A stretch of DNA of 64,000 nt from an uncultured Verrucomicrobiota bacterium (GCA_903916195.1 CAIWVP010000020.1:1-64000); one strand, 5' to 3'. Shown: positions 2,572 through 46,047, numbered from the stretch's first letter. Notes: generated by a model from the sequence alone, not told the origin. Numbers and translations are program-made.

Positions 2572-3321
2572 TCAACAACCGGTGTCGGCGGCCGACATCT
2601 TCTTCTTGGCCGGGCGGGTGCCAGCGCTGGAGCTCCGCCGGGACGTGCGCGGGTGGTCCGCCGGCTTGAAACTCTTGGCCATCGCCCTGGAACCGAAGAT
2701 CTGGGACCACTTGCCGTTCTTGAAGACCGGCATGTATCCACCGGGCCGGATCTCGAACGGCTTCTTGCAGCTCCCAAGATGGTCGAATTTGACGGAACCC
2801 GGCTTGTGGAACGCCTCGAACCATGAGGGGTAGACGAAGTTCGACATCGCGATGGCGTCCACGTCGAACGCTTCCCGTTCCACGGCATCCGCCGTCTCGT
2901 AGGCATACCAGACGCCTTTCGGATCGAGTGCACCGAGCTGGATGCCGGGATCGACCAGCATCTCGGCCAACTCGTGGGACGCGGTGACCGAAACCTCCTC
3001 ACCGTTGGAGACGGTGGTCCTCACGAAGACCTTGGACAGGGGCATCCCCGCCCTTGTGAGGTCGTGGTACCCGAGGGCGTCGGCCGCATCGGCGTCGTCG
3101 AGGAACAGGAAGCCCCAGTGGTCCTTGGGGATCCTGCCGTCCGGGGAGATCACCAGGCGGCACGGGGTGCCCCAGACCGGTGTGAAATGCCGGTCCGCGT
3201 AGACCTGCAACGCGGCGACAAGTTTTTTGAAGTCCGCGCCGAGCGGTGTCTTGGCCAGGTTGGCGCAGCTGATGGTCGGGATGGTGCCTTGGTTGAAGGC
3301 GGCGAGGATGGTCTTTTTCAT
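2572..3321 (-). CDS. HExxE-containing putative metalloprotein
   Basis: A 249-residue protein with no signal peptide. The key motif is H116-E117-L-A-E120 followed by a Val-Asp-Pro turn (ASHELAEMLVDP), which looks like a zinc-binding metallopeptidase helix. Further on come an acidic stretch and a conserved-looking block NFVYPSWFE, then FDHLG, PFEIRPGGYMP and a Trp-Ser-Gln-Ile-Phe ending. The last 35 residues are Ser/Arg/Lys-rich and probably disordered. It lies 48 bases downstream of the DUF4331-catalase fusion on the same strand, so it may be the last gene of that transcript. Substrate and peptidase activity are unproven; a non-catalytic metal-binding role is possible. Confidence 0.6.
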   Translation of the reverse strand: MKKTILAAFNQGTIPTISCANLAKTPLGADFKKLVAALQVYADRHFTPVWGTPCRLVISPDGRIPKDHWGFLFLDDADAADALGYHDLTRAGMPLSKVFVRTTVSNGEEVSVTASHELAEMLVDPGIQLGALDPKGVWYAYETADAVEREAFDVDAIAMSNFVYPSWFEAFHKPGSVKFDHLGSCKKPFEIRPGGYMPVFKNGKWSQIFGSRAMAKSFKPADHPRTSRRSSSAGTRPAKKKMSAADTGC

Positions 3322-3369
3322 ATAAGGATGCTGGGTGACCGGATGCAGAAAAGGGCGTGCCTGGGCGGA

Positions 3370-6261
3370 TCAGTTCTTCCTGGAGACGAGGCTGAAAACG
3401 CCGCCGATGAGGTCCGCCAGCCCGTTGATCGCGCGCGCGGCCCGGCCGGGGCCCGTGACGGAACCGGGATCATCGACATCATCGCGCCACTTCGGATGGT
3501 GGAAGTGGATGACGAAGTCGCCGTTGTAGGAAGCCGCCGCCTCATCGAACGCGATGTCCCCGATGGTGCGCCAATCGGCGCCGACGAGCTTTTTGTCGAT
3601 CAGCCCCTCGATCTCGCCCTTGTCGGAGACCTGGATGTCGAACACGAGGCGGCGCTTCGGGAGGTCGCTACCGCGGTCGTAGATCTGGGCCAGCACCTCG
3701 TCGCGGAAATCGGCGGTCGCCTCGCCGCCACCGATCTTGGGGCTGGAGATCTTCAGCTGCATGTACCGCGGGCAACGCGTCCGCACGCCTGCGGGCTTGC
3801 CGAGCTCGGCGACCTCGTAGAGCTGGCGGACCGTCTTCTGCTTGTCGGCGCGGCCGAAGGTGAAGGCGACCAGGAGCAACGTGCCGATGTCGAACCCGCG
3901 GGCCGAGGTGGTGACGTCCGGCGCGTTGCGCAGCAGCGCGTCGTGGATCCCCGGCGAGAAGGCGGCACCGAGGTCCTCTTGGGTGATGAAGCTCGCCGTG
4001 CGTCGTCGGTCCTGAGGATCCAGTGTCGGAAAGAGCTTTCCGACCATCGACAGCGTCCGTTTCTCGCCGCGGCGGACGCCCAGACCGGTCGAATAGCGTC
4101 CGATCACGAGACCTTGGCTGCCCTTGCTGAAGTATCCGGTGTACGGCGTGTCCTCGGTGATGCGCCACGTGCCGGCCAAGCAGACCCCGTTCGGATGGAG
4201 CAGCCGGCGCACGCCCTTGCGCTCCGGCCCGCCCCAGCGGAGGTCGGCGTGGCTGACGAGGGTGCGCTTCGCGGCATCGAGGAAGACGAAGCGTTTTCCG
4301 ATGTCGAACAGACCGGTCGCGAGGCCCCAGAACGTCGTCATGTGGACGGGAAGTGGTTTGTCGCCGTCCTGGCCCCAGGTCGTCCCGTGATACGGCTCGT
4401 CGAGGACGGCATCGCGGACTTCTTGGAAGGTCGACCCGACGTATTGCCGGTCGTCGATGGTCTCGCTCTGGCTCCCGAGCGTGTCGGCTTTCCCGGCCGC
4501 CGCGGCGCGGATCCCGCGCCGGACCCCGAACCCGTACAGCGCGACCAACCCGAGCGCGCCGATCAGGCCCGTCCCGCCGATGCTCATCAGCATCCGCCGC
4601 TGCGGCTGCGGCATGGACAGGGGATCCATCGTCCCGAGTTTCTTGGCCGCGACCGGTTGGACCATCATCAGCCCCAAGATGCCGACGATGACGGTGGAGA
4701 TCCTGGCCGGCACCGTCCGGACGGCGAGGAACACGAGCCCCGCCGTCGCCGCGATCCCGATGACCAATCCGAGCCAGATGCTGTGCCAGACCGGCAGCGC
4801 GAGGTCGGGAAGGGCGATGGCGCCGGAATCCGGCGCGTCCGGGACGCGGTAGTCGCCGATCATCGTGCCCGGTTGCATGTGGTTGGTGGTCTGCAGTCCG
4901 GTCCATCGTTCCGCCAGATAGGGGAAATCCTTCCGGAACGGTTTGTCGTTCCGTGTCGCGCGGGGGAACTGCTTGGACTCGGCGTACGACAACTCGACGA
5001 GCAAGGTCTCGCCCGCATCGGCAAGGGTCCGGGCCACATCGTCCTCGAACCACCGGCCGTTCGGGAACTTCGCCGGCTTGCGGAGGTCGAACACCATCAC
5101 GTCCGGCGCATTGTCGTAGTGGCGATGCGCCTCGAGCGGCGAGATGAAGGTGGCGAGGATGTTCTCGAAGAGGTCCGGTTCGCCGTGGACCTGCATGATC
5201 TTGGCGACGTGCCGGGACGGATGGAGGCCGTTCAGATATCCGAAGCGCGGCAGCTGCGTCCGCAAGGACCGGCCCACATGATCGCTCTGTCTGCCGTCCG
5301 GCGTGTGGGTCGTCGCCCAGAAGAAGACCGGTCCCCCGGCGGCCGGAGAGCCATCGGGCCGCCGGAGCCGCTTGAGAGGTATGCTCGCGACGATGCCGAC
5401 GACGTTCCCGCGGAAGAACCGCGGGAAGATGAACGGGTCGTCGAAGATCCCGCACTGGATGTTGACCACCCCGGGTTTCCAGGCCGAAGGCCGGACGAGC
5501 TCGCCGGAACCATCGGCCTTCAGGCGGCCGGGGCCCACCATGTTGATCGGTCCCGGGATGCCTTCGATGCGGGTCTTCTCCAGGTCGAGGTCGACCTCCG
5601 AGTTCTCGGCGTCCGATTCGAACTTGAGATGAAAATCGAGCACGACCTCTTCGGCGATATGGTCGGGGTTGGCGATGATCCCGCCGTACAGCGCCTGCGT
5701 GGACGCGTCCTCCTGGTGCTGGGAGACCAGCCCGCCGCGTTCGGTCAAGAGCCTCCGGACCAGGGCATGCGCCTGGTCATGCGCGGCCAAAGGGACTTTC
5801 ATCCCCGCGGGGATGGCGCGGTCGGCCGCATCGCTGGCGGCCATCGCTTCGGCGACCTTCTGGTCGAGATCGGCGAGGGTCGCGTCGTAGGCGCGGCCGT
5901 CCCGCGTCTTCGCCGGGTCGAAGAATCGCACCTCGGGATCGAGGTCGAGATGCACCCGGAACGAGTACTTCGGGACATCCTTGCCGATGCCCGCGATCTG
6001 CCAAGGCAGCAGCCGGCGCCGGACACAGAGGCTCACGATCAACTGGTCCGCCGACCCGACCCGCGCGGCGTCGAGGACCGGTGACCGATCCGCGTCGACC
6101 AGGAACGCGTGGAGGTCGGTGATGTTGGCGACCGGATCGTCCTGGAGCTTGAACGGGTTGACCGTGCTCATCGGATCCGCGTGGTCCGAGGCGCGCACGG
6201 GCGACAAGAACGTCGTGAAGGCGAGCAACGCGGTTCCGAAGAGAGGGAAGCGGAGGTTCAT
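3370..6261 (-). CDS. DUF4331 domain fused through membrane helices to a catalase-like haem domain
   Basis: A 963-residue exported protein. Residues 1-24 form a signal peptide. The mature part opens with Ser-Asp-His-Ala-Asp-Pro and runs to about 480 as a DUF4331-like region (NPFKLQDDPVANITDLHAF; DDPF at 274-277). Three probable membrane helices follow (about 488-515, 520-540, 558-580). Residues 640-930 resemble the small catalase / allene-oxide-synthase-like fold: LHPNGVCLAGTW (688-699, His689 as candidate distal residue), PYTGYFSKGSQGLVIGRYS (706-724), DFRDE (851-855), and a terminal HFHHPKW (919-925). The proximal haem tyrosine was not identified. It sits 26 bases after the GMC-patatin gene on the same strand. 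Function is inferred: haem-dependent handling of peroxide or lipid hydroperoxide at a membrane. Confidence 0.7.
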   Translation of the reverse strand: MNLRFPLFGTALLAFTTFLSPVRASDHADPMSTVNPFKLQDDPVANITDLHAFLVDADRSPVLDAARVGSADQLIVSLCVRRRLLPWQIAGIGKDVPKYSFRVHLDLDPEVRFFDPAKTRDGRAYDATLADLDQKVAEAMAASDAADRAIPAGMKVPLAAHDQAHALVRRLLTERGGLVSQHQEDASTQALYGGIIANPDHIAEEVVLDFHLKFESDAENSEVDLDLEKTRIEGIPGPINMVGPGRLKADGSGELVRPSAWKPGVVNIQCGIFDDPFIFPRFFRGNVVGIVASIPLKRLRRPDGSPAAGGPVFFWATTHTPDGRQSDHVGRSLRTQLPRFGYLNGLHPSRHVAKIMQVHGEPDLFENILATFISPLEAHRHYDNAPDVMVFDLRKPAKFPNGRWFEDDVARTLADAGETLLVELSYAESKQFPRATRNDKPFRKDFPYLAERWTGLQTTNHMQPGTMIGDYRVPDAPDSGAIALPDLALPVWHSIWLGLVIGIAATAGLVFLAVRTVPARISTVIVGILGLMMVQPVAAKKLGTMDPLSMPQPQRRMLMSIGGTGLIGALGLVALYGFGVRRGIRAAAAGKADTLGSQSETIDDRQYVGSTFQEVRDAVLDEPYHGTTWGQDGDKPLPVHMTTFWGLATGLFDIGKRFVFLDAAKRTLVSHADLRWGGPERKGVRRLLHPNGVCLAGTWRITEDTPYTGYFSKGSQGLVIGRYSTGLGVRRGEKRTLSMVGKLFPTLDPQDRRRTASFITQEDLGAAFSPGIHDALLRNAPDVTTSARGFDIGTLLLVAFTFGRADKQKTVRQLYEVAELGKPAGVRTRCPRYMQLKISSPKIGGGEATADFRDEVLAQIYDRGSDLPKRRLVFDIQVSDKGEIEGLIDKKLVGADWRTIGDIAFDEAAASYNGDFVIHFHHPKWRDDVDDPGSVTGPGRAARAINGLADLIGGVFSLVSRKN

Positions 6262-6287
6262 GGTCGGTCGGGTCTCGGGCTTGGATC

Positions 6288-9200
6288 TCAGCGGATCACG
6301 GCGGCGGCGGCCTTCTGACCGAGCCGGCGATAGCTTTCCCAGCGGTTCTCGTCGAAGAACTGGTCCGCCGTGGAATCCTGGGGGAAGTCGGGGTTGAGCT
6401 TGGCGAACCGCGCGACGTCGAGCGGTTCATCCCCGGTGAGGCTGGACTTGATCATGAGCAGCCACGAATCCGGTGTGCGGCGGTCTTGGTAGACGATCCG
6501 GGCGATCGCGGCGTGCTTGGTGCCGGGGCCGCCGTGGGACGGGTTGCCCTTGATGTCGCCGAGGCTGCCGATCGGCCCGTCGGTGAGGTGTTTGTCATCC
6601 AGCGCGATCCAGTGCCGCACGATCGCCGGCGGCACGGCCTCGACCGCGTCGCTCAGAGTGAACTCCGACGGATCGACCCACACCACTTCCGCACTGAAAT
6701 CGACACGGACGGCCTCGACCCAGGTCCCGAGGTCGTCGAACGCGTACCCGACATCGCGCGTGGCGTCGGTGGCGATGATGAACGGGACCCGCCGCCGCAC
6801 GAGCTCGTACAGCGAGCTGTTGTCCAGATGGCCGCCGTCCGAGAGGTTCCAGAGCTCGCACGAAGGGCCGCCGAACCGGGCGGTCCATTCCGACAGCAAA
6901 AGGAACTGGGTGCGGAAGACCGAGCTCGGGAGCTCCTTCAGGCGTCTCCACACGTTGGCTGGGTAACGGCCGGGCCGCTCGGTGGCGCGGATCCCTGAGT
7001 CCCACCAGAAGCCGAGCCGGAGGTTGACGATGCCCATGAACAAGGCCTCCAACGCGTTGGTGGACCGGCCGCGGCCGGTCGAGAACGCCGCGCCCGAGGT
7101 CCCCACCCAGTCTCCCAGCGAGAGCCCTTGGACGACCGCCGGATATCCATCGCGGCGCGCCAGCGGATGGAACGAACCGGGGTCCGCGTCGATCCGCAGG
7201 GCGTCGAGCGTCGGCGGCGTGTCCTGGTCGAGGTCGATGCCTTCGACCCAGCGGCGGAACCGGAGCCAGGCCGGGACTTCGACCCGCCGAGACCATGTGG
7301 CGAAGTACCGCCGGCCGACGCTCGCACCGAACGATCCCACGGTCATGAGCGTGCCCTTGCGGGTCGCGTCGTGCCGCTGCGACGCGTGGTCCACCGTCTC
7401 GTTGACGCAGACCGAGATCAGATGCAACGGGCCGCCGTGGTCCTCCGGCCGGTAGAGATGGTGCGGGATGTCGTCCCCGGGTTGGGCGATCGACACGTCG
7501 GCCGCGACGGCGTCCTTTCCGCTCGTCCGGTCGGTGTTCGTCGCTCCCAGGAACGTGCGGACGATGCGGGACGAGTAGGTGGCGTGGAGCGACGTGAGGT
7601 TGAGGAAATCGTACGCCCGTCCGAGCACCACCGAGAACAGCAGGGCGACCGACACGACGGCCCATGCCGTCACCGGCGAGGTGGCGAGGAACAGCTTGTG
7701 CGCGGCGACGTCCACCACGAACAACAGGAGCAAGGCGAGCAGCACCGCGGTCAGCTTGAGCATCGTGGCGGCGTCCGCCCCGTCGCCCTTCGGGAGCACG
7801 CGATCGGCCCAGGTGCGCAACAACCGGAGTCCAGGCGCCAAGGCGAGGAACACCCCGACCGCTTCGCCGAGATGCCGTTTCCCGGCGACGGTTCCCGCCA
7901 ACGAATCGAGCCCGACCCAGACCACGGTCCCGGCGAAGAGGAGCAACGCCTCGCCCAGACCGCGGCTCAGGCGGTTGCGGGCGGCCGACCCTTCCTGTTG
8001 CAGTTGCCGGGTCGTCGTCTCGGGCAATCCGCGCCGCGCGGATTCCTGCCAGAGCCACGCGAGCCCGAGGATGCCGAGCGCTCCGCCCGCCCAGAGGCCG
8101 CTACCGGACAACCCGAGCGCGACCGAGGCGCCCGCGATCAGGACGACCCAAGCCGCGAACGGATACGGCGGATGCGCACGGTACGAGGACGTCTTGGGAG
8201 CCAGCCAGTAGCCGAGCGTCATCGGCACGACGACCCCGCCGAGCATCGCCACCGGGACCCACCACCAAGCGGACGGCGTCACCGGCCCCCACATCGACGG
8301 CCCTGGCGGATGCGCGAGCAGCCCGGAGAAGAGTGCCGATCGAGCGGTCCCGGCCAACAGCGCGAACAGCGCGAAGACCAGGGCTCCGACGACGATGTGC
8401 ACCGCGAACAGGTTGCGGAAAAAGATGCCGACCGCGATGAGCCAGTCGTTGGTCCCGCTCGCGACCAGGTAATCCGACTGCGACCTGAGCCAGCGCAACG
8501 GGGCGCTCCGGTTGTCGGCGAGGATGTCCTGCGCTCTGCCGCACGGATCGCTCGAGCTAGTGACCATCTTCCGGGTGAAGAGCCGGCCCAAGAAACTTCC
8601 CGTGAACGCTCCGCCGGAGACGGTCGAGAGGAAGTCGATGTGGCGGAGCCGGCCCTTCGCCGCGAGTTCCTGGACCACGCCGAGCGAGAAGGTGGCGCTG
8701 CGGATGCCTCCGCCGGAGAGCGCCAGTCCGACCACGTTCCGCATCGGTCTCTCCGAGGCGCCACCGTCGGCATCGCATCCGGCGGCCGCCGCGGCGACCG
8801 GCCGCCGGGCGGGCGGCACGAAGACGTTGTCCTGGTCCACCGCCGCCACGGAGCGGCGTTTGGCGATGGCGGCCGTCTCGAGGTCGCGGATCTCGTCCGG
8901 GTAGACCGCGTCGCACCGCTCATGCAGGAAGGTCTCGGCAGCCTTCTCGCTGACCATGAAGATCGGCGCGAGGATGAAATAGCCTGGGATCTTCGGGAAC
9001 ACCGAGGCGTCGACGACGCGGAGCCCCCGGACGCCATGGACCCGGAAATGGCTGTCCAGGACGGCGTTCTTGTCGGACAGGTCCGCGGCGTCGGCCTGCC
9101 AACGATCGCTGCCGATGCGGCACGTCCCGCACGCGTGATGCCCCCACGCTTCGTTGATGATCCAGTCGCGCAGCGACCACGGTGGAAGGCCTTTGGCCGC

Positions 9201-11201
9201 GCGGCCGGCGTTCGCGGCCTCGAGGTAGCCGGCCGGCTGGATCTCCCGGGCGAACGCCGTGCCGGTCGCCTGGGTGATCTCGCGCATCGACCCGATCGCC
9301 TCGACCATCGCGTCGACATCGTCCGCCCAACCGGGACCGCCGCCCTGTTTCTCGGCCTGGTCGAATGAATTGAAACAGATGTCCGGCGTGTCGAGCGGGT
9401 CCGCGCTCCGGAGGCGCACGGTGCCGCCGTCGTTCCTCGTGTAGGCCTTGAGGATCACCCAGGTCCAGAGGTTCCGCTGGTCGCACGGCGCACCTTTGAC
9501 CGGGCGCAACAGCTCCTTGGACCAGCGCCAATAATATCCGCGGAACGCCGCCGGGGCGCCGAACGTCAGGAGGTCCGGTTCCGGCCCGTCGGCAGCGGCG
9601 GATCGCTGGAGCACAGCGATGGTGCCGCCGTTGGTGGCGTACAGGCCTTCGCGCTTCGCCTTCCATTCCGCCAGCAGCTTGTCCTCCGGGTCGGTCGGAT
9701 CGAAGGCGATGGTGTCGAGCGACCGCAGGTCGTCTCGGAGTTCGCTGACGACGCCGACCTCGTACCGGTCCTGCAGGTTCCGTCCCACACCGGGAAGCAC
9801 GACGCGGCTGCGGATGCCGTGCTTGGCGAGTTCCGTCCCGGGTCCGATGCCGCTGAGCATCAGCAACTGCGGTGTGTTGAAGGAACCACCGCACAGCACG
9901 ACCTCGCCCTTGGCCTGGAAGGTCGGTGTCCCCGCCGCAGCGCGATCCTCCGCGGCGTGCCGCACGAAAAACTGGACCTCGCTCTGCGGCTGCCCCCGGC
10001 CGTGCTTCGGGCTCGCCCGGTAAAGGTCATCGCCGCGGATGCCTTTGACGCCGATCGCGCGCGGGGTGCCGCTGGTCCCGGCCGCCCGGTCGAACAACAC
10101 CTCGGTGACATGGACGCCCTTCGCGATGACCAAGCGGTCCGGGTGCGCCTTCTGGGTCTTGAGGATGAACTCGCGGACACCTGCCCGCCGGCCTTTCGTG
10201 GAATGTCCGTCCTCATCGCGGACCTTGTCGCCTCCGATGCCGGTCGGGATCAGGAACACGCCGCCGTCAGGGTTATCGGCCCGTGTCCCGTTGTCGTTGG
10301 GGTCGAAGGCCCGGACGAAACCCAGGGTGACCAGCATGCGCTTGAGCACCGCCGTCAGGGTCGAGCTGTCCTCGATCACCTTGAACGCCGACCGGACCAA
10401 TACTTTGGTGAATTCCGCGTCGGTCGCCACGATCCGGGTGATCAGCTTGGGCGGGATGAAACTGGTCGGCTGCCAGCCCTTGCGCCCGTGCCCTCCTTCG
10501 TCGAGCACCGACTTCGGGTTGATGAAGCGCATGACGGCCAAGAAGGCCGTGTAGAACCATCCGAGCACGGCGGACAAGAATCCGCGGTACTCGTCGATGT
10601 AGAGGCACTGCTCGAACTTCGCGAAGTAAGGCCCCATGTTGTCCGGGCTCCAGGACTCGTCGCCGGTCAGGTCGGCGATCTGCTGCCAATCGCGGTCGTT
10701 GGGCCGGATCACGATCATCGCATGGTGTCCCGTGCATCCGCCGATGCCGGAACTCCGCGGATAGAAGATGCCTCCTTTGCCTCCGCTGCCGATCGGCGGC
10801 GACCCGGGCTTCGCCGGGTCCAAGGACGGGGACGACGGGTCCCGCTCGGCATCGTACTTGTGGTCCTCGCGCTGCCTCGCGTCGTCCTCGTAATGGCGGA
10901 CCGAGTATTGCCAGCTCAGCGTCTCGTCCTCGGTCGATGCGCCATGGAACAGCGGCGCTTCCAGCACGGCGGTCGCGTCTTCCGGGCGCTGTCCGGACCG
11001 TTTCGCCGCCTCGGCCAGCGCTTCCTTCGGATCGTGGCCGGCCTCGACCAACAACACCTTCTTGCCCGCTTCGGCGAGGCGGCAGGCGAGGGGGCCGCCA
11101 CCGGCCCCGGATCCGACGATGATGTAGTCGAACGGCGACGTCTCGGGCGAGCGGGCCGGGGCCTCGGACGTTGCCGCGTGGTTTCTTTCCTGCGCATCCA
11201 T
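6288..11201 (-). CDS. GMC oxidoreductase fused to a membrane-embedded patatin-like phospholipase
   Basis: A 1637-residue two-enzyme fusion. Residues 23-760 form an FAD-dependent GMC (glucose-methanol-choline) oxidoreductase: dinucleotide motif GSGAGGGPLA (30-39), FAD loop GIGGCTGHHAM (152-162), CGGSFNTPQLLMLSGIGP (437-454) and catalytic-region WGHHACGTC (686-694). The usual second His/Asn segment reads PGYFILAP, which is atypical. Residues 820-1640 are patatin-like: oxyanion motif SGGGIRSATFSLG (829-841), candidate nucleophile Ser862 in TVSGGA, and Asp1455 in SDGGHLDN. Between Ser862 and Asp1455 lie roughly seven hydrophobic helices (about 918-1195). No N-terminal signal peptide is visible. 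It sits 27 bases downstream of the dihaem cytochrome gene. Likely role (inferred): release and oxidation of lipid-derived substrates at the membrane. Confidence 0.8.
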   Translation of the reverse strand: MDAQERNHAATSEAPARSPETSPFDYIIVGSGAGGGPLACRLAEAGKKVLLVEAGHDPKEALAEAAKRSGQRPEDATAVLEAPLFHGASTEDETLSWQYSVRHYEDDARQREDHKYDAERDPSSPSLDPAKPGSPPIGSGGKGGIFYPRSSGIGGCTGHHAMIVIRPNDRDWQQIADLTGDESWSPDNMGPYFAKFEQCLYIDEYRGFLSAVLGWFYTAFLAVMRFINPKSVLDEGGHGRKGWQPTSFIPPKLITRIVATDAEFTKVLVRSAFKVIEDSSTLTAVLKRMLVTLGFVRAFDPNDNGTRADNPDGGVFLIPTGIGGDKVRDEDGHSTKGRRAGVREFILKTQKAHPDRLVIAKGVHVTEVLFDRAAGTSGTPRAIGVKGIRGDDLYRASPKHGRGQPQSEVQFFVRHAAEDRAAAGTPTFQAKGEVVLCGGSFNTPQLLMLSGIGPGTELAKHGIRSRVVLPGVGRNLQDRYEVGVVSELRDDLRSLDTIAFDPTDPEDKLLAEWKAKREGLYATNGGTIAVLQRSAAADGPEPDLLTFGAPAAFRGYYWRWSKELLRPVKGAPCDQRNLWTWVILKAYTRNDGGTVRLRSADPLDTPDICFNSFDQAEKQGGGPGWADDVDAMVEAIGSMREITQATGTAFAREIQPAGYLEAANAGRAAKGLPPWSLRDWIINEAWGHHACGTCRIGSDRWQADAADLSDKNAVLDSHFRVHGVRGLRVVDASVFPKIPGYFILAPIFMVSEKAAETFLHERCDAVYPDEIRDLETAAIAKRRSVAAVDQDNVFVPPARRPVAAAAAGCDADGGASERPMRNVVGLALSGGGIRSATFSLGVVQELAAKGRLRHIDFLSTVSGGAFTGSFLGRLFTRKMVTSSSDPCGRAQDILADNRSAPLRWLRSQSDYLVASGTNDWLIAVGIFFRNLFAVHIVVGALVFALFALLAGTARSALFSGLLAHPPGPSMWGPVTPSAWWWVPVAMLGGVVVPMTLGYWLAPKTSSYRAHPPYPFAAWVVLIAGASVALGLSGSGLWAGGALGILGLAWLWQESARRGLPETTTRQLQQEGSAARNRLSRGLGEALLLFAGTVVWVGLDSLAGTVAGKRHLGEAVGVFLALAPGLRLLRTWADRVLPKGDGADAATMLKLTAVLLALLLLFVVDVAAHKLFLATSPVTAWAVVSVALLFSVVLGRAYDFLNLTSLHATYSSRIVRTFLGATNTDRTSGKDAVAADVSIAQPGDDIPHHLYRPEDHGGPLHLISVCVNETVDHASQRHDATRKGTLMTVGSFGASVGRRYFATWSRRVEVPAWLRFRRWVEGIDLDQDTPPTLDALRIDADPGSFHPLARRDGYPAVVQGLSLGDWVGTSGAAFSTGRGRSTNALEALFMGIVNLRLGFWWDSGIRATERPGRYPANVWRRLKELPSSVFRTQFLLLSEWTARFGGPSCELWNLSDGGHLDNSSLYELVRRRVPFIIATDATRDVGYAFDDLGTWVEAVRVDFSAEVVWVDPSEFTLSDAVEAVPPAIVRHWIALDDKHLTDGPIGSLGDIKGNPSHGGPGTKHAAIARIVYQDRRTPDSWLLMIKSSLTGDEPLDVARFAKLNPDFPQDSTADQFFDENRWESYRRLGQKAAAAVIR

Positions 11202-11228
11202 GGCGGGGCGGGGTGAGGGGCCGGGAGA

Positions 11229-14200
11229 TCAGAGGGTCTTCAAGAACGCGATCAGGTCCTGTTTCTCGGTGTCGCTGAGCGACTCTCCGAACAGGTGTCC
11301 GCGGTCCATCACGAAGTCGGGGCACTTGCTCGCGTCCAACAACGGTTGGCCCGCGCGCCGGATGAAGAGCTGGTAGGCCTCGTCCCCGGTGAGGCCCTGT
11401 TTCTTGATCTCGGCCATCGCGAGGACGAGCGAGAGCACCGCCTTGGGCAGCTTCGGCGATTCCGGGTCCATGCTCATGACGAGGCTGACCGGAGTGCCCC
11501 GGGGGATGGGGCCGACCTGGACCGGGAACGGCCCGATCGCGACGTTGGCGACCGGGAGGGTCAACAGCGCGCGACCGTTGATGAAGCTGTTCGCCGCGTG
11601 ACCGATCAGTGCGACGACGACGGCAAGGGTCGCGAAGAACGCCCGGGAGAAACCCGGCAGCGTCGGGCGCGCTTTCCAGCCGATGAGCAAGGCGACGACC
11701 GCCGCGCCGCCACCGGCCCACGGGCCCGCCCAGCGGAAGACGACGTACGCCACGGCGAGCAACAGGAGCCAGAGCAAGGTCCGGGCGGTCTTATCGCAAT
11801 CGGGCCGGGCCTGGATGAAGATGACCCCGTAGAAAGCCAAGGCGACCGCGATGATCCACCACTGACCCGAACTGAGCTCGAGCAGACCGGCGGCGCCCAT
11901 CAGCAGGACGCCGGCAGTGCTGCCGCCGCCGCCCAGGCCGGTCAACGCGATGCCGGCAGCGACGATCACCGACAGGAGCAACAAGGCGACCCCGAGGTAG
12001 CGAGGACGGTGTTTCCAGGCGAGGGCCGCCAAGAGCGCGACCCAGAAGACCCAGAGCCAGAGCGAGACCACGGCCGTCACGACCGGGCCGGCGACCCCCT
12101 CGACCAGCGGCCGGACGAACGCCGGCGCGAACGCGACGCTGGTGTCCTGCGGCACCCGGTAGATGAAGCCGGGATCCCGGGCGGCAGAGGGCGAGACGCC
12201 GCCCCGCAGATCGCCTGGACGTGTCACGACCATCGCCGGATCGATCCGCGGCCCGGCATCGCCGCCGGACTGGAGGGCGTCCAACCAGCGGAGCTCGTCG
12301 GCCGACAACACGAGCGACCGGTTCGCGCGCTTGTCCTTCCACAGCAGCCGCCGCATCGCGTCGGTGAACTGGACGAGCCGGCCCTTGACCGAAGGGTCGT
12401 CGAGATAGAGGCCCAGCGAGTTGTTGTGCAGATAGGGTGCCGTGGCCCACAGCGAGTTGTGGGTCGCCGGCCGGAAATATCCACGGCCGCCGCCCGGCGC
12501 GATGAAGGTGTCGGTCCCTCCGCTCACCGGGTTGAAGTAGGAGACCGCGCCGACGGCGGGCAGTTCCTTGTACGTGGTGGAGCTGAAGTTGTCCCAGACG
12601 TGGCCTTCGATGCCGTTGCTCGCGACCGCGCGGGCCGTCGAGGTGCCGACCAGCGTGATCGGGACACGGATGTCCGTGGAAAGATAGTTGTCGTCCCAGA
12701 AGGGGTGAGGATCGGTCAGCGGATCCCCCCCAAGGTCCTTGGTGGAGCGCACCAGGTCATGAAGACGTTCCTTGTAGTCCCTGTATGCGGGGCTCGCCTT
12801 GTAGGCGTCCCAATGGGTCGCATCCATCGGCAGGACGTACCATGCGTTGGTGGGCGCGGCTTGATCGGCCCACGACGCGCTGCCCGGTTTGTGCCCGAAG
12901 CCGAGACCGAAGCCCGCGGGTTGCTTGCTTGAATGACAGACCGCGCAGTGGTCGAGCCACACTTGGCGCCCGTGCTTCCGCTGATCAGGCGAGTCGAGGG
13001 CGAGCAGCGACGCGGCGGCCTTGCTCGGGGTCGCTCCGTCCGGTTCCTTGGCCGCGGCCAACTTCATCGGCTGCGTGCTCGTGTGCGGGCCGGCGGCGGG
13101 AGGCAAGGGGACGGTTGCGGAGGCGGCCTTCGGGACTCCGCCGCCCTGGTTGAGGAACGTGAAGTAGGCGGCCAGATAGGGCACGCGGTACCGGTCGTTG
13201 ACCATCCAGTACACGGAGTTCTTCTGGCAGACCTCGAGGCTGAAAGGAATCTGCGGGCGGAACCCGATGAGCGGGTTGTGGCAGAGGTTCCACTGCTCGT
13301 AGAAGGTGCCGATGTTCAGGTACACACGGGCGAGGGCTCCGAAAGCGCCGATCGAATCCGAGCCGTCGAGCAGCACCCGCGGCGTGTGCCGCCAGTCTTG
13401 GCCGTCGTGCCGGACCGGCAGGCCGGGATCCTCGATGCTCGGGGCGAGGACGTTGGCCGGGCTCTGGCGCTCCGTCGGGTTCACCTCGGCGCGGGCAAGG
13501 CGCGCGTTGATGTTGAACACGGCGTTCATCGTGTTCGCGTTGACGATGTGGTCGGTGCTGACGAGCGAGGTGTCCACCGTGCCCGGTTGTTGGCTCGCCA
13601 AAAAATGGAACAAGAAGCTGTTCGGCGTCTGGAGGTTCCCGAACGCCGGCTGCGGTTTCCAATATTGGGCGCCGATGTTGGACGAGAGGTTCGCCCAGTC
13701 CGGCGCCTCCCGGTCGGCCGGCGGGTTCAGCGGATGCGGCCCGATATGGCAGAATCCGCACGAGACGCTGACCCGGAACGGCCGGACCAGCTTCGGGTCC
13801 ACCGTGATCTTCGGGTCCGTGTAGTAGCGGTCGTGCGTCTCGAGCACCTGGTGGGTCCAATACGCCCGTGCCGTCGCCGGGCCTTTGCCCGGTCCGAAGA
13901 AATCGGGGTTGAAGAACAACCGGAGACCGAAGATCCCGCTGGGATACCCATAGATCGTGTAGTCCAGGCCGTCGCCGGCCGCGTCGAGTCTGGATTTCGT
14001 GTCCTCGAAAAGGGCCTTGTCGCCGGGTTCGAACAACGGCTTGCCCGCGTGGTCGCCCGGGATGACGGGACGCTTCGCATCGGGGTCCCACGGAGGGTTG
14101 CCGAGCACCGCGCCCTGGCTCCGGTAGCCTTCAGGAAGATCCGAATTGGCGTGGTCGGGCGCGACCGGAAGGTCGAGATAGAGCCCGAGGATGCGTTTCG

Positions 14201-14789
14201 ACGGGTCCGTGTTCGACCGGTATCCCGGCTGGTTGATCAGTCCGGCCCGCACGAACCGGTCACCGCGCCGTCGTGAATCCAGCGTCACCAAGAAATCGGT
14301 GATGCCGTAGCCGTCCTGCGCCAGCCAGTTCCAGAAGCTCTCGTTGCCGGCGCCCCAGAGCAGCCACGTGTTCCGGCCGCGGATGGCGTCGCGCTCCTTG
14401 CCGTCGATCTTGCCGTCGCCGTCGGTGTCGAAATCCAGGGGCCGCAACTGCCCGTCCTTGCCCGACGGCACCATGTCCATCCGCCAGAACAGGTCGCGGG
14501 TCTCGGCAGGGAAACACTCCGGCGTGCGCGGTGTGATCTCGGTGCCGTTCCGGGTCCGACCGCCGAGCGCTTCGTCCAGCGGATGCCCCGGCACCGCCTT
14601 CTTCCGTAGCGCCTCGATGCTCTCGTACGGGTGCTTCGGTGGCGCCGCCTTCATGGCCGGGTTCGACGCCCCTGTTCCGGCGGGGGGCGGAGCGGCAGGA
14701 TGATAGGTGTCCGCGAAGGTGGCCATGGCCGTGACGGAGGCCATCGCGACAACGCGGCGGAGCCGCAGGAAAGGGAGGGCAGGGGGCAT
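11229..14789 (-). CDS. Membrane-anchored dihaem cytochrome c, RoxA/MauG-like, with multi-helix C-terminus
   Basis: An 1186-residue exported protein with two c-type haem sites, CGFCH (344-348) and CAVCH (615-619). Residues 1-27 form a signal peptide. An EF-hand-like calcium loop (DTDGDGKIDG, 121-130) precedes GRNTWLLWGAGNESFW (138-153). After the second haem comes LWATAPYLHNNS (780-791), a motif shared by dihaem cytochrome peroxidase/MauG relatives and rubber oxygenase RoxA-type proteins. Residues 900-1070 contain about six or seven transmembrane helices, which is unusual for this family. The tail RGHLFGESLSDTEKQDLIAFLKTL is a typical cytochrome c C-terminal helix, apparently displaced behind the membrane block. 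It is the first gene of the three-gene run. Electron transfer or haem-based oxygenation is inferred. Confidence 0.75.
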   Translation of the reverse strand: MPPALPFLRLRRVVAMASVTAMATFADTYHPAAPPPAGTGASNPAMKAAPPKHPYESIEALRKKAVPGHPLDEALGGRTRNGTEITPRTPECFPAETRDLFWRMDMVPSGKDGQLRPLDFDTDGDGKIDGKERDAIRGRNTWLLWGAGNESFWNWLAQDGYGITDFLVTLDSRRRGDRFVRAGLINQPGYRSNTDPSKRILGLYLDLPVAPDHANSDLPEGYRSQGAVLGNPPWDPDAKRPVIPGDHAGKPLFEPGDKALFEDTKSRLDAAGDGLDYTIYGYPSGIFGLRLFFNPDFFGPGKGPATARAYWTHQVLETHDRYYTDPKITVDPKLVRPFRVSVSCGFCHIGPHPLNPPADREAPDWANLSSNIGAQYWKPQPAFGNLQTPNSFLFHFLASQQPGTVDTSLVSTDHIVNANTMNAVFNINARLARAEVNPTERQSPANVLAPSIEDPGLPVRHDGQDWRHTPRVLLDGSDSIGAFGALARVYLNIGTFYEQWNLCHNPLIGFRPQIPFSLEVCQKNSVYWMVNDRYRVPYLAAYFTFLNQGGGVPKAASATVPLPPAAGPHTSTQPMKLAAAKEPDGATPSKAAASLLALDSPDQRKHGRQVWLDHCAVCHSSKQPAGFGLGFGHKPGSASWADQAAPTNAWYVLPMDATHWDAYKASPAYRDYKERLHDLVRSTKDLGGDPLTDPHPFWDDNYLSTDIRVPITLVGTSTARAVASNGIEGHVWDNFSSTTYKELPAVGAVSYFNPVSGGTDTFIAPGGGRGYFRPATHNSLWATAPYLHNNSLGLYLDDPSVKGRLVQFTDAMRRLLWKDKRANRSLVLSADELRWLDALQSGGDAGPRIDPAMVVTRPGDLRGGVSPSAARDPGFIYRVPQDTSVAFAPAFVRPLVEGVAGPVVTAVVSLWLWVFWVALLAALAWKHRPRYLGVALLLLSVIVAAGIALTGLGGGGSTAGVLLMGAAGLLELSSGQWWIIAVALAFYGVIFIQARPDCDKTARTLLWLLLLAVAYVVFRWAGPWAGGGAAVVALLIGWKARPTLPGFSRAFFATLAVVVALIGHAANSFINGRALLTLPVANVAIGPFPVQVGPIPRGTPVSLVMSMDPESPKLPKAVLSLVLAMAEIKKQGLTGDEAYQLFIRRAGQPLLDASKCPDFVMDRGHLFGESLSDTEKQDLIAFLKTL

Positions 14790-15262: not shown

Positions 15263-18200
15263 TCACTTCTTCCCGAGCTGGGAGAGGAACTTCACCAAGT
15301 CGCAGAACTCCGCCCGGCTGAGCGGGTCGGCGATACCGTCCGGCATCAGGGAACCGAGTTGGCGACGTTCCGTGATCTGCGATGGCCGAAGGTGGACGAT
15401 CTTTCCGGAGAGATGGTCGAGCAAGGTGAGCTCCTCGGCCGACTCGCCGCGCAGGTAGCCTTGGTAGGTCGTGCCGTCAGCGGCCACGACCTCGTGGGCC
15501 ATGAAACCTTCTTTCACTTCCTTCTGCGGTTCGAGGATCGCGCCGATGACGAACTCCACGGTCTGGGCCGTGCCGAGCGGGCTGAGGTCGGGGCCGATCT
15601 TTCCCGGCGTGCCGTCCACGCTGTGGCAGGCAGAACAGGCAAGGCCGGGCCGCATGAAGATATCGCGGCCACGGGCGATGTCGCCCAGGGACCGGACCTC
15701 GGCCGCCAACGTGGCCGGATCACCGAACCGGGCAGGCCCGGCGGCCGCTGGGACACCTGCGGACGTCTCCAGCGCCAAGGCCAGTGCTGCATCGCGGCGG
15801 CCGGCAGCTCCGAGCACCGCGAGCCCGGTCTCGGCGGCGGTCTTCGGGATCGTCTTGCCGGCCAAGGCGGCGGCAAGCGCCGGGGGACCGTCGCGCCGGA
15901 GCAGGAACGCCTTGAAGACCTCGGTCGTCGGGGCCGGGTCCTGGGTATCGGCGAGCCAGACAACGGCCGCGCGCGCCGCGGCGGACGGATCCAGCGGTAC
16001 CAAGCGGAGGATGGCCGCCCGACGGGATCTGGCGTCCGGAGCCGTCGCAGCCAGGCCGCGGAGGATCTCGCGGTCCGGTTCGCCGCCATACATGCCAAGG
16101 GCGTCGATCGCGGCGGTGCGGAGCCCGGGAGATGCAGTCGTATCGACTGCATCGGCCGCCACACGGTCGCGCACGGCGGCGATCCGCCATGCGCCGGCCA
16201 ACCGGACCGCGGCATCCCTCAACGCCGGCCGGTCCTGGGCGAGCAAAGGTTTGAGCAGCGCCGCCAGATCCCCTTCTGGACGGAGGTCGCGTTCGCGCGC
16301 CGCCGCGAGCAATGCGCCGAGGCTGCGGATGTGGGAGGCGGAGTCGTAGTTCGTGCCCGTGGTGTGTGCGCGAGCCGAGAGCAGCACGCCGAGCTCCTTC
16401 GGTCCGCCCGCTTCGGCGACGACCTGGAGCAGCCCTCGTTGGGTGGCCTCGTCAAGCGCGACCTCCCCGATGCGCCGCAGACGGTTCGCCGCGAGCGAGA
16501 CGGTGCCGGCGCTGCGGTCGACACGGTTGAAGGCCGCGAGCCGGGCCGGCTGGCCATCGAACTTCAGGTCGCCGCGTGCCAAGGCGTCCTGCCAATGCGG
16601 CCGGAGCGCGTGCACGCACTGGGTGAAAGCATAATCGATCACCGGATCCCAAGGCAGGTCGGCCGCTATGGCGGCGGTCTCGACCGCGCGGGCGTCGGCG
16701 ACATAGCTGCACGCGACCACGGCTTCGAGCCGGACGCGCGGGGACGGATCGGCGGCCAACCGGGCGAGCAAGTCCAACGGTCGGGGCAGGCGGTCCGCCC
16801 AGATCCCGGCGACGTGGGCGGCGTAGGCGCGCGCTTCCGGCGCCTTGGCGGAGGCCAACCGCGACAACAGCCCCGCCTCGACCACTTCGTGGGACGCATG
16901 GACGCCGAGCGCCTCGAAGAGCGCGTGCTCATCCGTCGCCGCCGGAGACGAGGTCCATGCTGCGAGCGCGGCCGTGACGTTTGCGGTCGGCCGGTCGGCG
17001 AGGACGCGCTTGGCCATCTGCCGGTACCAGCGTTCCGGCGAGGCGAGCATCGCCACGAGTTCGGGCGTCGGCAGCTGCGTCAGCCTTTTCCGGGGCACGA
17101 GAGGCCGGCCCTTGGCGGTGACGCGCCAGATGCGGCCGTGCGACTTGTCGCGGTCCGGATGGCGAAAGCTCGTCTGGTAGTGCCCGATGACAGGATTATA
17201 CCAGTCGCAGAGATAGAGCGCGCCGTCGGGTCCGAACCGAGCGTCGACGACGCGGAAGGCGGTGTCGGTCGACTCGATCAAGGGAGGCAGGCGCTCGGCT
17301 GTGAAGCCCGACGCGGCATCAGTGAAGCGGAATCGTTCGACCGAGTTCTGGAGATATCCGCCGCTGACGGCCTCGCCTTGGTTGGCCGCCGGGAAGTGGC
17401 CGTTCTCGACGAAATCGGCGCCGCCGAATTTCCGCCCCTGGTTCCAGATCGAGCGCTGTTCCAGGAAGTGGTCGGTGCGGATCATCGCCTGCGTCAGGTG
17501 ATGGACACCATGCCCGTTGCCGGCGAAGACGAAAGGCCGGCCCCAGCGGTCGAAGGCGTTGCCGAATGGATTGTGCGCGCCCATCGCGCCGGTCCAGAAA
17601 GGATCGAGGCGGAGCCGTCGCGGCCACAGGCGGAAGACGCCGGCCTGGCGGAGCTCCTCGATGCCCCACGGCGTCTCGACGCGCGAATTGGCGTGCAGGC
17701 CCTGGCTCATGAGCAGTTCGCCGCTCGGGCCCCAGGTGAACGAGTTCACCGTCTGATGCGTGTCGCCGGTGCCGAAGCCGCGGAGCACCACACGGCGGTC
17801 GTCGGCCTTGCCGTCGCCGTCGGTGTCGCGCAGGTGGAGCAACTCCGTCGAACTGCCGACGTAGAGCCCGCCGTCCCCGAGCTCGAGCCCGGTGGGCATC
17901 AGCAGGTCGTCGGCGAAGACCGTCGTCTTGTCCGCGCGGCCATCGCCGTCGGTGTCCTCCAGCACGACCACCTGGTCGCGGGCAGGATCGCCGGGCTTGA
18001 TCTGCGGATAGGTGACGCTGCCGGAGACCCAGAGACGTCCGTCCGGATCGAAGCGGATCTGGATCGGTTTGACCACCCCGTCGACCTCCGACGCGAAGAG
18101 GTCCACATCGAAGCCATCGAGCACCCGGAAAGATGCCTTCTCAGCCGCGGGCGGATGAGGATCGTCCGCCGCGCCGAGGCGGACCGCCGACAGGCACAGG

Positions 18201-18343
18201 CACAGGCAGAGTAGCCCGCGAAAGACGCGAAGGCCCTCGAAAAAGAGAGAGGCTTCGGAGCTCTGAGGACCGGTGGCGGGACGACCGCGCTTCACGGGTC
18301 CAGATCGGTCCGTTCCCGGAGAGGATGTGCCACAGTGTTTCAT
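15263..18343 (-). CDS. PVC-type haem-binding CxxCH protein with beta-propeller and HEAT-like repeats
   Basis: A 1026-residue exported protein. A membrane-targeting segment (about 40-58) follows an unusually long polar start; a GTG at codon 17 is an alternative start. Residues 70-420 form a glucose-dehydrogenase-like six-bladed propeller (PIQIRFDPDGRLWVSGS; repeated DTDGDGKADD calcium-like loops; FGPDGALYLCDW). A long alpha-helical HEAT-like region follows to about 890. The C-terminal domain carries haem motif CSACH (903-907) with GKIGPDLS and the tail LMPDGIADPLSRAEFCDLVKFL. This architecture is typical of the large cytochrome families expanded in Planctomycetes and Verrucomicrobiota. It is the last gene of a likely four-gene operon, 44 bases after the SGNH-like gene. 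Sugar or alcohol oxidation is possible but substrate is unknown. Confidence 0.85.
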   Translation of the reverse strand: MKHCGTSSPGTDRSGPVKRGRPATGPQSSEASLFFEGLRVFRGLLCLCLCLSAVRLGAADDPHPPAAEKASFRVLDGFDVDLFASEVDGVVKPIQIRFDPDGRLWVSGSVTYPQIKPGDPARDQVVVLEDTDGDGRADKTTVFADDLLMPTGLELGDGGLYVGSSTELLHLRDTDGDGKADDRRVVLRGFGTGDTHQTVNSFTWGPSGELLMSQGLHANSRVETPWGIEELRQAGVFRLWPRRLRLDPFWTGAMGAHNPFGNAFDRWGRPFVFAGNGHGVHHLTQAMIRTDHFLEQRSIWNQGRKFGGADFVENGHFPAANQGEAVSGGYLQNSVERFRFTDAASGFTAERLPPLIESTDTAFRVVDARFGPDGALYLCDWYNPVIGHYQTSFRHPDRDKSHGRIWRVTAKGRPLVPRKRLTQLPTPELVAMLASPERWYRQMAKRVLADRPTANVTAALAAWTSSPAATDEHALFEALGVHASHEVVEAGLLSRLASAKAPEARAYAAHVAGIWADRLPRPLDLLARLAADPSPRVRLEAVVACSYVADARAVETAAIAADLPWDPVIDYAFTQCVHALRPHWQDALARGDLKFDGQPARLAAFNRVDRSAGTVSLAANRLRRIGEVALDEATQRGLLQVVAEAGGPKELGVLLSARAHTTGTNYDSASHIRSLGALLAAARERDLRPEGDLAALLKPLLAQDRPALRDAAVRLAGAWRIAAVRDRVAADAVDTTASPGLRTAAIDALGMYGGEPDREILRGLAATAPDARSRRAAILRLVPLDPSAAARAAVVWLADTQDPAPTTEVFKAFLLRRDGPPALAAALAGKTIPKTAAETGLAVLGAAGRRDAALALALETSAGVPAAAGPARFGDPATLAAEVRSLGDIARGRDIFMRPGLACSACHSVDGTPGKIGPDLSPLGTAQTVEFVIGAILEPQKEVKEGFMAHEVVAADGTTYQGYLRGESAEELTLLDHLSGKIVHLRPSQITERRQLGSLMPDGIADPLSRAEFCDLVKFLSQLGKK

Positions 18344-37234: not shown

Positions 37235-37990
37235 ATGAAATCTTCCGGTCATATCTTGGGCGGCGCGAGCCGGCCCGCTGCGTCGGTCCGCCGTGCGGTC
37301 GCGTTCACGCTCATCGAGCTGTTGACGGTGATCGCCATCATCTCCGTCTTGGCCGGCTTGCTCGTGGGCCTCGCCCCGATCGCCACCACGCGGATCCGCG
37401 AAGCGCGGCTCAAGGGCGAGCTCAACGACCTCGTCACCGCCATCGAATCCTACAAGGCCAAGTACGGCGTCTATCCGCCGGACAGCTACAACGCCGACAA
37501 GAACGAGGTGGATGCGGTGGTCAACCCGCTCTACTACGAGCTGACCGGCTTGGTCGTCGTCAATAGCGGGGACACCGGCTACTTCGAGACGGTAGATGAC
37601 GCGACCCGTTTTCTTCCTGCGACCGCGCAACAGTATTTCCATCGCGACGGGTTCCTGAACGCGGCGACCCGCGACCGGTTCCGCCGCCTGTTCCGGCACA
37701 CCTTCAAGGCCAGCCAGCACGCCAGCGTCCTCCGGACCGCCGGGGCCGGGACCAAGAATGCCGAGGTGCTCACGGTGGGCTTCGCGGCGGATGCCTCCGG
37801 CAAGAAGAACTCCGGGTTCGCGTGGCCGTTGAACGACGCGCGTCATCCGCAGCCGGTCCCCACCAATCCCGGCCTCAACCCGTGGCGCTACGTCTCGACG
37901 AACCCCACCAACAACCCCGGGACCTTCGATCTCTGGGCCGAGGTGATCGTCCGCGGCCAGAAGAAGACCTACGGCAATTGGAAGCAGTGA
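37235..37990 (+). CDS. Type II secretion/pseudopilin-like protein 1
   Basis: A 251-residue protein with a class III prepilin signal: a basic leader of 23 residues, cleavage Ala23-Phe24 (AFTLIELL) and the conserved Glu at mature position 5. A 20-residue hydrophobic helix follows, then a GspG-like amphipathic region (ESYKAKYGVYPPDS). Ala rather than Gly precedes the cleavage site. The remainder is a globular domain rich in Asn and Pro. It opens a run of seven same-strand genes ending with the giant protease. A prepilin peptidase must come from outside the window. Confidence 0.85.
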   Translation: MKSSGHILGGASRPAASVRRAVAFTLIELLTVIAIISVLAGLLVGLAPIATTRIREARLKGELNDLVTAIESYKAKYGVYPPDSYNADKNEVDAVVNPLYYELTGLVVVNSGDTGYFETVDDATRFLPATAQQYFHRDGFLNAATRDRFRRLFRHTFKASQHASVLRTAGAGTKNAEVLTVGFAADASGKKNSGFAWPLNDARHPQPVPTNPGLNPWRYVSTNPTNNPGTFDLWAEVIVRGQKKTYGNWKQ

Positions 37991-38030
37991 ACCCGCGCCC
38001 CACGTCCCGAACCCGTCCTCCCGTCATCCC

Positions 38031-38831
38031 ATGAACCTACGCCCGCATCTGCGCCGCCGTCAGCCGAGCGCCTTCACGCTCATCGAACTGCTCGTCGTCA
38101 TCGCCATCATCGCCATCCTCGCCGGCATGTTGTTGCCGGCCTTGGCGGGCGCGAAGAGGTCGGCCAACAAGAGGAAGGCCTCGGTGGACATCAGCAACCT
38201 GCACGCCGCCATCACCGCGTACCAGGCGGCCTATGGACGCCTCCCGTCCTCCCAAGCGGCCCGCGCCGAGGTCAACGCCCAGTACCCGGACTTCACCTAC
38301 GGCACGCAGCAGAAGGGCGTCCAGGTGTTCGATTCCAAGGGCGTGGTCAATTACGACACCGTGAAGAATATCGGCGGGAACACCGACCGGCAGCTGAGCA
38401 ACGCCGAGATCATCGCCATCCTGACCGACACCTCTCTGGCCGCCGACAAGTTCCCCGTCGCCAACGCCTACAACGCCGTCAACGACACCGACAATAGTCC
38501 GGTGAACTTCAAGTCCGCGTTGAACCCGCAGCACAACACCTTCCTCAACATCAAGACGGCCAAGGGCTACGGCCCGAACGGCGTCGGCGAGAACGACGGC
38601 GTGTACCGGGATCCGTGGGGCCATCCCTTCATCGTCACCCTCGACCTCGATTACGACAACCGGGTGCGCGATCCGTTCGGTGCGCAGTGGCCGGCGTCCG
38701 ACGACCGCTTCCGCAGCATCAAGGCCAGCGCCGTCGTCTGGTCCTTGGGGCCGGACGGAAAGGTCGATTTCACCAAGGGCGTGAACGAGAAGGGGACCGT
38801 GAACGAGGACAACCTCTACAGTTGGCGCTGA
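38031..38831 (+). CDS. Type II secretion/pseudopilin-like protein 2
   Basis: A 266-residue protein. The prepilin signal is a 14-residue basic leader, Ala14-Phe15 cleavage (AFTLIELL) and Glu at mature position 5, then the hydrophobic helix VVIAIIAILAGMLLPALAGA. The following AITAYQAAYGRLPSS matches major-pseudopilin organisation, and WGHPFIVTLDLDYDNRV near 198-214 resembles the C-terminal block of GspG-like proteins. It lies 40 bases after pseudopilin 1 and 25 bases before cassette protein D. Confidence 0.85.
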   Translation: MNLRPHLRRRQPSAFTLIELLVVIAIIAILAGMLLPALAGAKRSANKRKASVDISNLHAAITAYQAAYGRLPSSQAARAEVNAQYPDFTYGTQQKGVQVFDSKGVVNYDTVKNIGGNTDRQLSNAEIIAILTDTSLAADKFPVANAYNAVNDTDNSPVNFKSALNPQHNTFLNIKTAKGYGPNGVGENDGVYRDPWGHPFIVTLDLDYDNRVRDPFGAQWPASDDRFRSIKASAVVWSLGPDGKVDFTKGVNEKGTVNEDNLYSWR

Positions 38832-38856
38832 TCTGCGACGTACGACCGAGCTTGCC

Positions 38857-40664: not shown

Positions 40665-40681
40665 CTTCTAGCGAGCCGCGT

Positions 40682-46002: not shown

Positions 46003-46047
46003 TCGACCGTCATCATCGGCCGCGCCTTTCCGCCTGAACCGCCCGCT

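Follow-up and report, generated by a model that had tools for sequence, protein, structure and literature searches.

A recurrent gene pair of dihaem cytochrome and GMC flavoprotein with patatin, DUF4331 and catalase-related modules in an uncultured Verrucomicrobiota bacterium

Genes and features of the locus

The window analysed here, a stretch of 64,000 nucleotides from an uncultured Verrucomicrobiota bacterium, carries on its minus strand three large adjacent genes, P4, P3 and P2, followed by a smaller one, P1 (Table 1). The intergenic gaps calculated from the ORF coordinates are 27 bases between P4 and P3, 26 between P3 and P2 and 48 between P2 and P1, which confirms the tight same-strand arrangement of three large genes (gaps of 26-27 bases) described in the initial annotation, as well as the HExxE protein placed there 48 bases beyond P2: it is P1, with HELAE at residues 116-120. 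The coding status of the four reading frames is backed by their codon-position GC content (GC3 0.87-0.89, GC2 0.46-0.51). PADLOC models of anti-phage defence gave no match for P1-P4, and a defence reading of these genes was dropped.

A gene for a DUF7133/HEAT/cytochrome c protein (15263-18343) precedes P4 by 473 bases on the same strand; other lineages did not show it as a recurring neighbour of P4. What looks like a cassette for pilin-type secretion or assembly occupies 37235-54576 on the plus strand: a series of genes there has pseudopilin-type N-termini (FTLIELL), and behind them come a 1487-aa and a 2842-aa ORF with a Thr run.

Table 1. Genes, domains and motifs of the island, in positions of the window.
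Feature	Position	Strand	Remark
P4	11229-14789	-	1186 aa ORF
CGFCH, N-terminal of the two haem attachment motifs of P4	13746-13760	-	residues 344-348; all three Cys and His residues invariant (66 homologues)
CAVCH, C-terminal of the two haem attachment motifs of P4	12933-12947	-	residues 615-619; all three Cys and His residues invariant (66 homologues)
DRGHLFG, C-terminal candidate haem-ligand motif of P4	11286-11306	-	His1165 invariant in 66 homologues
P3	6288-11201	-	1637 aa ORF
P3 N-terminal part, GMC flavoprotein domain	8862-11201	-	FAD motif GSGAGGG
WGHHACGTC, conserved GMC catalytic His	9120-9146	-	alignment with E. coli BetA
KIPGYF, Phe742 at the position of the E. coli BetA catalytic Asn	8976-8993	-	family hallmark IPG[YFL]F
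P3 C-terminal part, patatin-like lipase domain	6291-8726	-	Ser and Asp motifs separated by membrane helices
STVSGG, nucleophile elbow, Ser862	8610-8627	-	patatin dyad
LSDGG, catalytic Asp1455	6831-6845	-	patatin dyad
P2	3370-6261	-	963 aa ORF
P2 N-terminal part, DUF4331-related domain with signal peptide	4822-6261	-	sub-cut-off Pfam match; homologues
P2 linker, three predicted membrane helices	4534-4803	-	residues 487-576
P2 C-terminal part, divergent catalase-related (CAT) domain	3442-4476	-	stand-alone protein in other genomes
RRLLHPNG, candidate distal His689 and Arg three residues earlier	4186-4209	-	profile alignment
P1	2572-3321	-	249 aa ORF; zincin-like HELAE protein

The dihaem cytochrome P4

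P4 begins with a signal peptide and contains exactly two CxxCH motifs, in agreement with the dihaem protein initially proposed. The roughly seven membrane helices once attributed to it are reached only if the N-terminal signal or anchor is included: hydropathy gives five C-terminal membrane helices, and the AlphaFold2 model (pLDDT 81) five long helices and a short one at the C-terminus together with one at the N-terminus.

Sequence searches with P4 itself returned weak cytochrome and RoxA-like matches in Pfam, a weak di-haem peroxidase match in NCBIfam and no match in direct searches of the PDB. The clearer link runs through F1, the sister proteins of the Rhizobium-type cluster, which match RoxA (4b2n) at 3e-25. 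The alignment of P4 with the F1 profile is collinear (P 2e-6; 94% for the confident part alone) and takes in both CxxCH motifs, the APYxHN motif and the C-terminus. Because F1 matches RoxA and P4 aligns collinearly with F1, these comparisons place P4 as a predicted exported, distant member of the RoxA/FadCcp dihaem superfamily. Its last 25 residues also align without gaps to RoxA 4b2n, where His641, the C-terminal haem ligand, corresponds to His1165 of P4. Structural searches with the P4 model (Foldseek and VIA-align) were swamped by the helices and listed only membrane-helix matches, RoxA not among them, which says nothing against the kinship.

The fatty acid dioxygenase and diol synthase of P. 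aeruginosa belong to the same superfamily as the rubber oxygenase RoxA, and FadCcp members oxygenate oleate (PMC4496055). With RoxA and FadCcp (PA2077/PA2078) P4 shares the two CxxCH motifs in the same order and a C-terminal GH...L(I)xFLKTL segment containing the His that serves as second haem ligand; in the window it also shows a motif of the APYxHNxS type. P4 differs from them in being far larger, in its block of membrane helices, in its pairing with a GMC gene and in having almost no similarity beyond the haem motifs. The MauG-like PYxHNGS motif reads APYLHNNS in the P4 of the window, whereas its His is replaced by Leu in the Rhizobium homologues of P4. The region of RoxA Trp302, the bridge between the haems, and of Phe317 has no confident alignment in P4; no equivalent of either residue can be assigned with confidence, and no clear counterpart of Trp302 was seen. 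Oxygenase activity of P4 does not follow from its superfamily membership.

The GMC-patatin fusion P3

Both GMC domains of P3 exceed the Pfam cut-off (GMC_oxred_N 53 bits, GMC_oxred_C 80 bits), and downstream of them a Patatin domain does so as well (31 bits), with membrane helices between Ser862 and Asp1455; the proposed fusion of a GMC oxidoreductase to a membrane-embedded patatin was thus borne out. In the GMC superfamily the second catalytic residue, besides the catalytic His, is generally His or Asn. The alignment with BetA revealed that the His is retained in our system and that the second residue is Phe (IPG[YFL]F) in 70 of the 72 members, so that the usual pair of His with His or Asn was not found. 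The role of the His as base in GMC enzymes is established (PMC12198266). Compared with BetA, MftG, cholesterol oxidase and aryl-alcohol oxidase, the protein has the FAD motif, the GMC_N and GMC_C domains and the catalytic His in common, but it differs in the Phe (Asn in BetA), in its fusion to patatin and in being the constant neighbour of P4. Kinship to the GMC superfamily stands by the domains detected, and since the second catalytic residue is Phe, ordinary alcohol oxidation appears uncertain; the initial annotation, which took alcohol oxidation over from the superfamily, was right about the domains, but the activity cannot simply be transferred. A second, cholesterol-oxidase-like GMC protein, which retains Asn in this region, adjoins the catalase-related gene at three loci (L024, L106, L107).

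The oxyanion glycines, Ser862 and Asp1455 of the patatin part are present in P3 and kept in nearly all members, and to judge from these motifs the domain should be a hydrolase that is active and embedded in the membrane. Whether fused or separate, patatin genes occur at no fewer than 25 P4 loci and are missing from many other P4-GMC loci; the link to lipids is therefore not obligatory.

The DUF4331 and catalase-related protein P2

P2 starts with a signal peptide, and positive charge follows the last of its three helices. Its N-terminal part matches DUF4331 (PF14224), to our knowledge a domain without known function, at 20.8 bits against a cut-off of 27, and homologous separate genes at L036 and L117 exceed the cut-off. 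The C-terminal third, termed CAT below, gave no sequence match in Pfam, NCBIfam or the PDB, and PDB searches with CAT profiles returned chance hits only. The AlphaFold2 model of P2, built from a six-row alignment, reached pLDDT 36 and was unusable. The link to catalases comes from profile-profile comparison alone: a profile of 15 CAT homologues matched SrpA-like catalases at 81% (hhalign, E 1.2e-5) and classical catalases at 4%, compared with at most 0.3% for nine unrelated control profiles.

In coral allene oxide synthase (cAOS) the reference residues are R64, H67, R102 and N137 and, on the proximal side, Y353 with R360 (PMC5617202). CAT retains the equivalents of the distal R64, H67 and N137 and of R102 within the patterns R-x-x-H, R-[YF]-S and N-x-P, which align with those of SrpA-like catalases and are each present in 13-14 of the 15 sequences. 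No conserved C-terminal Tyr was found among the same 15 sequences, whereas most F5 (AOS-type) and SrpA-like controls keep the proximal Tyr as R-x-R-x-x-x-Y or RxxxY. A catalase-type fold is likely for CAT on this profile evidence; haem binding is unproven because the proximal Tyr is not conserved, and AOS activity would be a guess. CAT also differs from coral AOS/HPL, minicatalases and SrpA-like catalases in lacking a significant sequence match to any catalase model and in being joined to DUF4331 via membrane helices. The comparison of the CAT and F5 profiles gave 0.1-0.6%, although F5 matches SrpA-like catalases at 99%, and a single family of the two was not supported.

Of the earlier description of P2 as DUF4331 fused through helices to a catalase-like haem domain, the fusion held, with the DUF4331 match below cut-off in P2 itself and the catalase relation seen at profile level, without a conserved proximal Tyr. 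The fusion is shared by three genomes of another family (G275, G741, G742), and it is therefore no assembly artefact.

Conservation of the island across phyla

When one genome per species was scanned with the P4 alignment, 80 loci emerged, which span Verrucomicrobiota, Planctomycetes, Acidobacteria, Nitrospirales, Rokubacteria, Myxobacteria and Alpha-, Beta- and Gammaproteobacteria, with P4 identities down to about 33% among the sampled loci; plasmid loci were found by tblastn. Among the 85 testable loci, defined as P4 with at least 1.5 kb downstream and taken from the scan and the plasmids together, a GMC gene lies directly downstream of P4 on the same strand in 71 (gaps of -196 to 259 bases), in a sample chosen on P4 alone and with many of the 71 being near relatives, so that the independent events are fewer. 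The count is on the low side, since two loci scored without GMC by ORF picking (L007, L081) have one adjoining P4 in the annotated record. The two families also diverge in step: their distance matrices correlate with r 0.89 over 70 pairs (mirror comparison), and the largest value in 1000 shuffles was 0.13.

The additional modules recur in fused and in separate form. On plasmid pOM4 of Mesorhizobium onobrychidis and in Rhizobium CCGE531, P4 is followed by a fused GMC-patatin gene, and in Rhizobium johnstonii pRL11 by separate GMC and patatin genes; on pOM4 the DUF4331 and catalase-like proteins are separate genes near P4 and GMC. G275 and its relatives G741 and G742 have P4, GMC-patatin and DUF4331-CAT, that is both fusions in the same order as the window. 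In the acidobacterial genome G469 (L117) the five modules are separate genes in one single-strand run with short gaps, in the order DUF4331, TPR protein, P4, GMC, a patatin of 283 aa, a protein of 141 aa and CAT, and at L104 DUF4331 and CAT adjoin P4-GMC. As genes that are separate in one lineage and fused in another are a classical sign of partners in one process, and as GMC with patatin and DUF4331 with the catalase-related part are fused in the present lineage, these parts appear to be tied into one assembly.

CAT occurs together with P4 in only two of the 338 genomes of the phylum, that of the window and G275. Among 58 near relatives it was found only in the window's genome and at one contig edge, which taken alone would suit a chance gathering of unrelated neighbours in this genome. 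Genes for P4, GMC or F1-type dihaem proteins lie no more than about 10 kb away at 12 of the 17 CAT loci and are absent at four, while one locus is ended by a contig end. The initial annotation had named homologues that are scattered and never adjacent as the outcome that would speak against it; the opposite was found, and with adjacency and the same fusions recurring in unrelated phyla, chance has a negligible probability. The island is a conserved system.

In a sister species the island is split over contig ends (contig C214 of G003 and the contig end L009): one contig carries P4, GMC-patatin and the start of P2, and another begins with P1, apparently preceded by the last 37 residues of P2. 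A LodA/GoxA-type CTQ oxidase lies beside a flavoprotein monooxygenase a few kb upstream of P4 on pOM4 (L004, 318-3879).

P1 has no Pfam match over its whole length. It occurs in three of 21 genomes, those of the window, its sister and Crenobacter (L012), where the homologue lies just upstream of P4; P1 was accordingly rejected as a core component and is a rare, weakly linked companion of the system.

Other versions of the cluster

A second version of the cluster (L031, L040, L043, L048-L050, L056, L059, L033) comprises P4, GMC, F4 (149 aa), F6 (433 aa), the DyP-type peroxidase F7 and the AOS-type catalase relative F5, whose match to coral allene oxide synthase (1u5u) reaches 3e-8; F4 and F6 matched no Pfam family. 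F5 and F7 take the place next to P4-GMC in the Rhodobacter-type clusters of alphaproteobacteria, and F5 and CAT were never found together in the mapped loci. The Rhizobium/Paracoccus version (L005, L007, L044, L061, L066, L077, L081) contains an NADH:flavin oxidoreductase, two dihaem cytochromes of the RoxA superfamily, the small membrane protein F10, P4 and GMC, frequently joined by patatin. At L107 CAT is fused to an F10-like domain, and at L024 it is preceded by a membrane domain of similar kind that is duplicated. Subunits resembling a Mo-dependent aldehyde dehydrogenase, F9 with [2Fe-2S] and F11 with MoCoBD, one of them with a TAT signal, stand beside P4/GMC or CAT at L083/L102, L119, L017, L018 and L046.

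The tight pairing and co-divergence of one flavoprotein with one c-type cytochrome, together with the additional dihaem cytochromes (F1) upstream in Rhizobium-type clusters, might be expected of a respiratory dehydrogenase, in which GMC would oxidise a substrate and the membrane dihaem cytochrome would carry the electrons to the respiratory chain. Fructose dehydrogenase-type complexes are dehydrogenases of this kind, composed of a GMC flavoprotein and a c-type cytochrome. The island resembles them in a GMC flavoprotein gene beside a membrane c-type cytochrome and differs in that P4 comes from another cytochrome superfamily, that a small subunit, of TAT type, was not seen and that lipase and catalase-related modules are added. 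A respiratory role is improbable, given that P4 belongs to the RoxA superfamily and differs from mono- and tri-haem electron carriers, that the GMC active site is of the His/Phe type and that the patatin, DUF4331 and catalase-related parts would be left unexplained.

Topology and proposed function

The GMC domain of P3 and the stand-alone CAT proteins of pOM4 and L117 have no signal peptide, in contrast to P4 and P2, which suggests that P4 and DUF4331 face the outside and GMC and CAT the inside of the membrane; the three P2 helices with the positive charge after the last one likewise argue for CAT inside, and the patatin active site would probably lie on the inner side as well.

We propose, with a probability of roughly 0.45, a membrane-associated system that oxidises a lipid-type or other hydrophobic substrate. 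The conserved pairing shows what its core is: the dihaem cytochrome P4 of the RoxA/fatty-acid-dihaem superfamily, predicted to be exported and anchored in the membrane, and the GMC protein with the His/Phe active site encoded by the next gene. The membrane-embedded patatin and proteins of haem peroxidase superfamilies (CAT here, AOS-type and DyP elsewhere) recur as accessory modules, fused or separate, and DUF4331 may act as the exported partner of the catalase-related domain. As to the order of steps and the role of each haem protein, we infer that patatin may act at the membrane to free or trim an acyl chain or ester, the dihaem protein would activate O2 or peroxide and oxygenate or cleave the substrate, the flavoprotein would transfer electrons to or from the product, and the catalase-related protein would rearrange or remove the (hydro)peroxide. 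The theme of lipid or hydrophobic-substrate oxidation put forward initially agrees with the membrane setting, the patatin dyad, the RoxA/FadCcp kinship and the AOS relative in other clusters; its oxylipin product and polymer substrate found no support. Against the proposal, relatives of DyP, catalase and CCP would be just as suitable for dealing with peroxide.

Aryl-alcohol oxidases and peroxidases cooperate in wood decay, and a comparable peroxide-fuelled or peroxide-guarding redox system could be imagined here, with GMC oxidising a small alcohol, sugar or aromatic compound to yield H2O2, the CCP-like P4 and the catalase-related or DyP proteins consuming or removing it, and patatin as an accessory membrane part. 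P4, CAT/F5 and F7 all lie in or are related to haem peroxidase superfamilies, the constant element is the P4-GMC pair and patatin is variable, and Mo-dependent aldehyde dehydrogenase genes (F9 with F11) occur in several clusters. With a signal peptide on P4 and none on GMC, however, source and user of H2O2 would be on opposite sides of the membrane; the second catalytic residue of GMC is lost, and the fused patatin has no explanation in such a scheme, which we regard as unlikely.

A narrower variant of the proposed lipid oxidation is an oxylipin pathway proper, in which patatin would free an unsaturated fatty acid, P4 would act as a 10S-DOX-like dioxygenase and CAT would convert the hydroperoxide to allene oxide, epoxy alcohol or aldehydes. 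The kinship of P4 to the RoxA superfamily, the AOS-type F5 in sister clusters and the intact active-site motifs of patatin are consistent with it, but the predicted compartments offer no simple match, and CAT has no counterpart of the proximal Tyr common to AOS and catalase. A specific oxylipin pathway is speculation and quite unlikely.

Significance

Every part of the island comes from a known superfamily, and the set as a whole is unlike any system found in the open-access literature, in which we found no description of it. That the island represents a new kind of system is a tentative suggestion. Few bacterial oxylipin or lipid-oxidation enzymes are known, among them the P. aeruginosa diol synthase, RoxA and scattered lipoxygenases. 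Hydrophobic-substrate oxidation, the reading preferred above, might possibly be extended to a phylum-spanning system in which a dihaem protein of the RoxA superfamily is the obligate partner of a His/Phe GMC protein and makes or breaks oxidised membrane lipids with exchangeable peroxidase-type (catalase-related, AOS-type, DyP) and lipase modules, though we consider this broader form rather unlikely. The core pair found in many phyla, the fusions that indicate partnership and the non-textbook GMC site would open a defined entry to new oxidative chemistry at the membrane, and DUF4331 gains a recurrent genomic partner.
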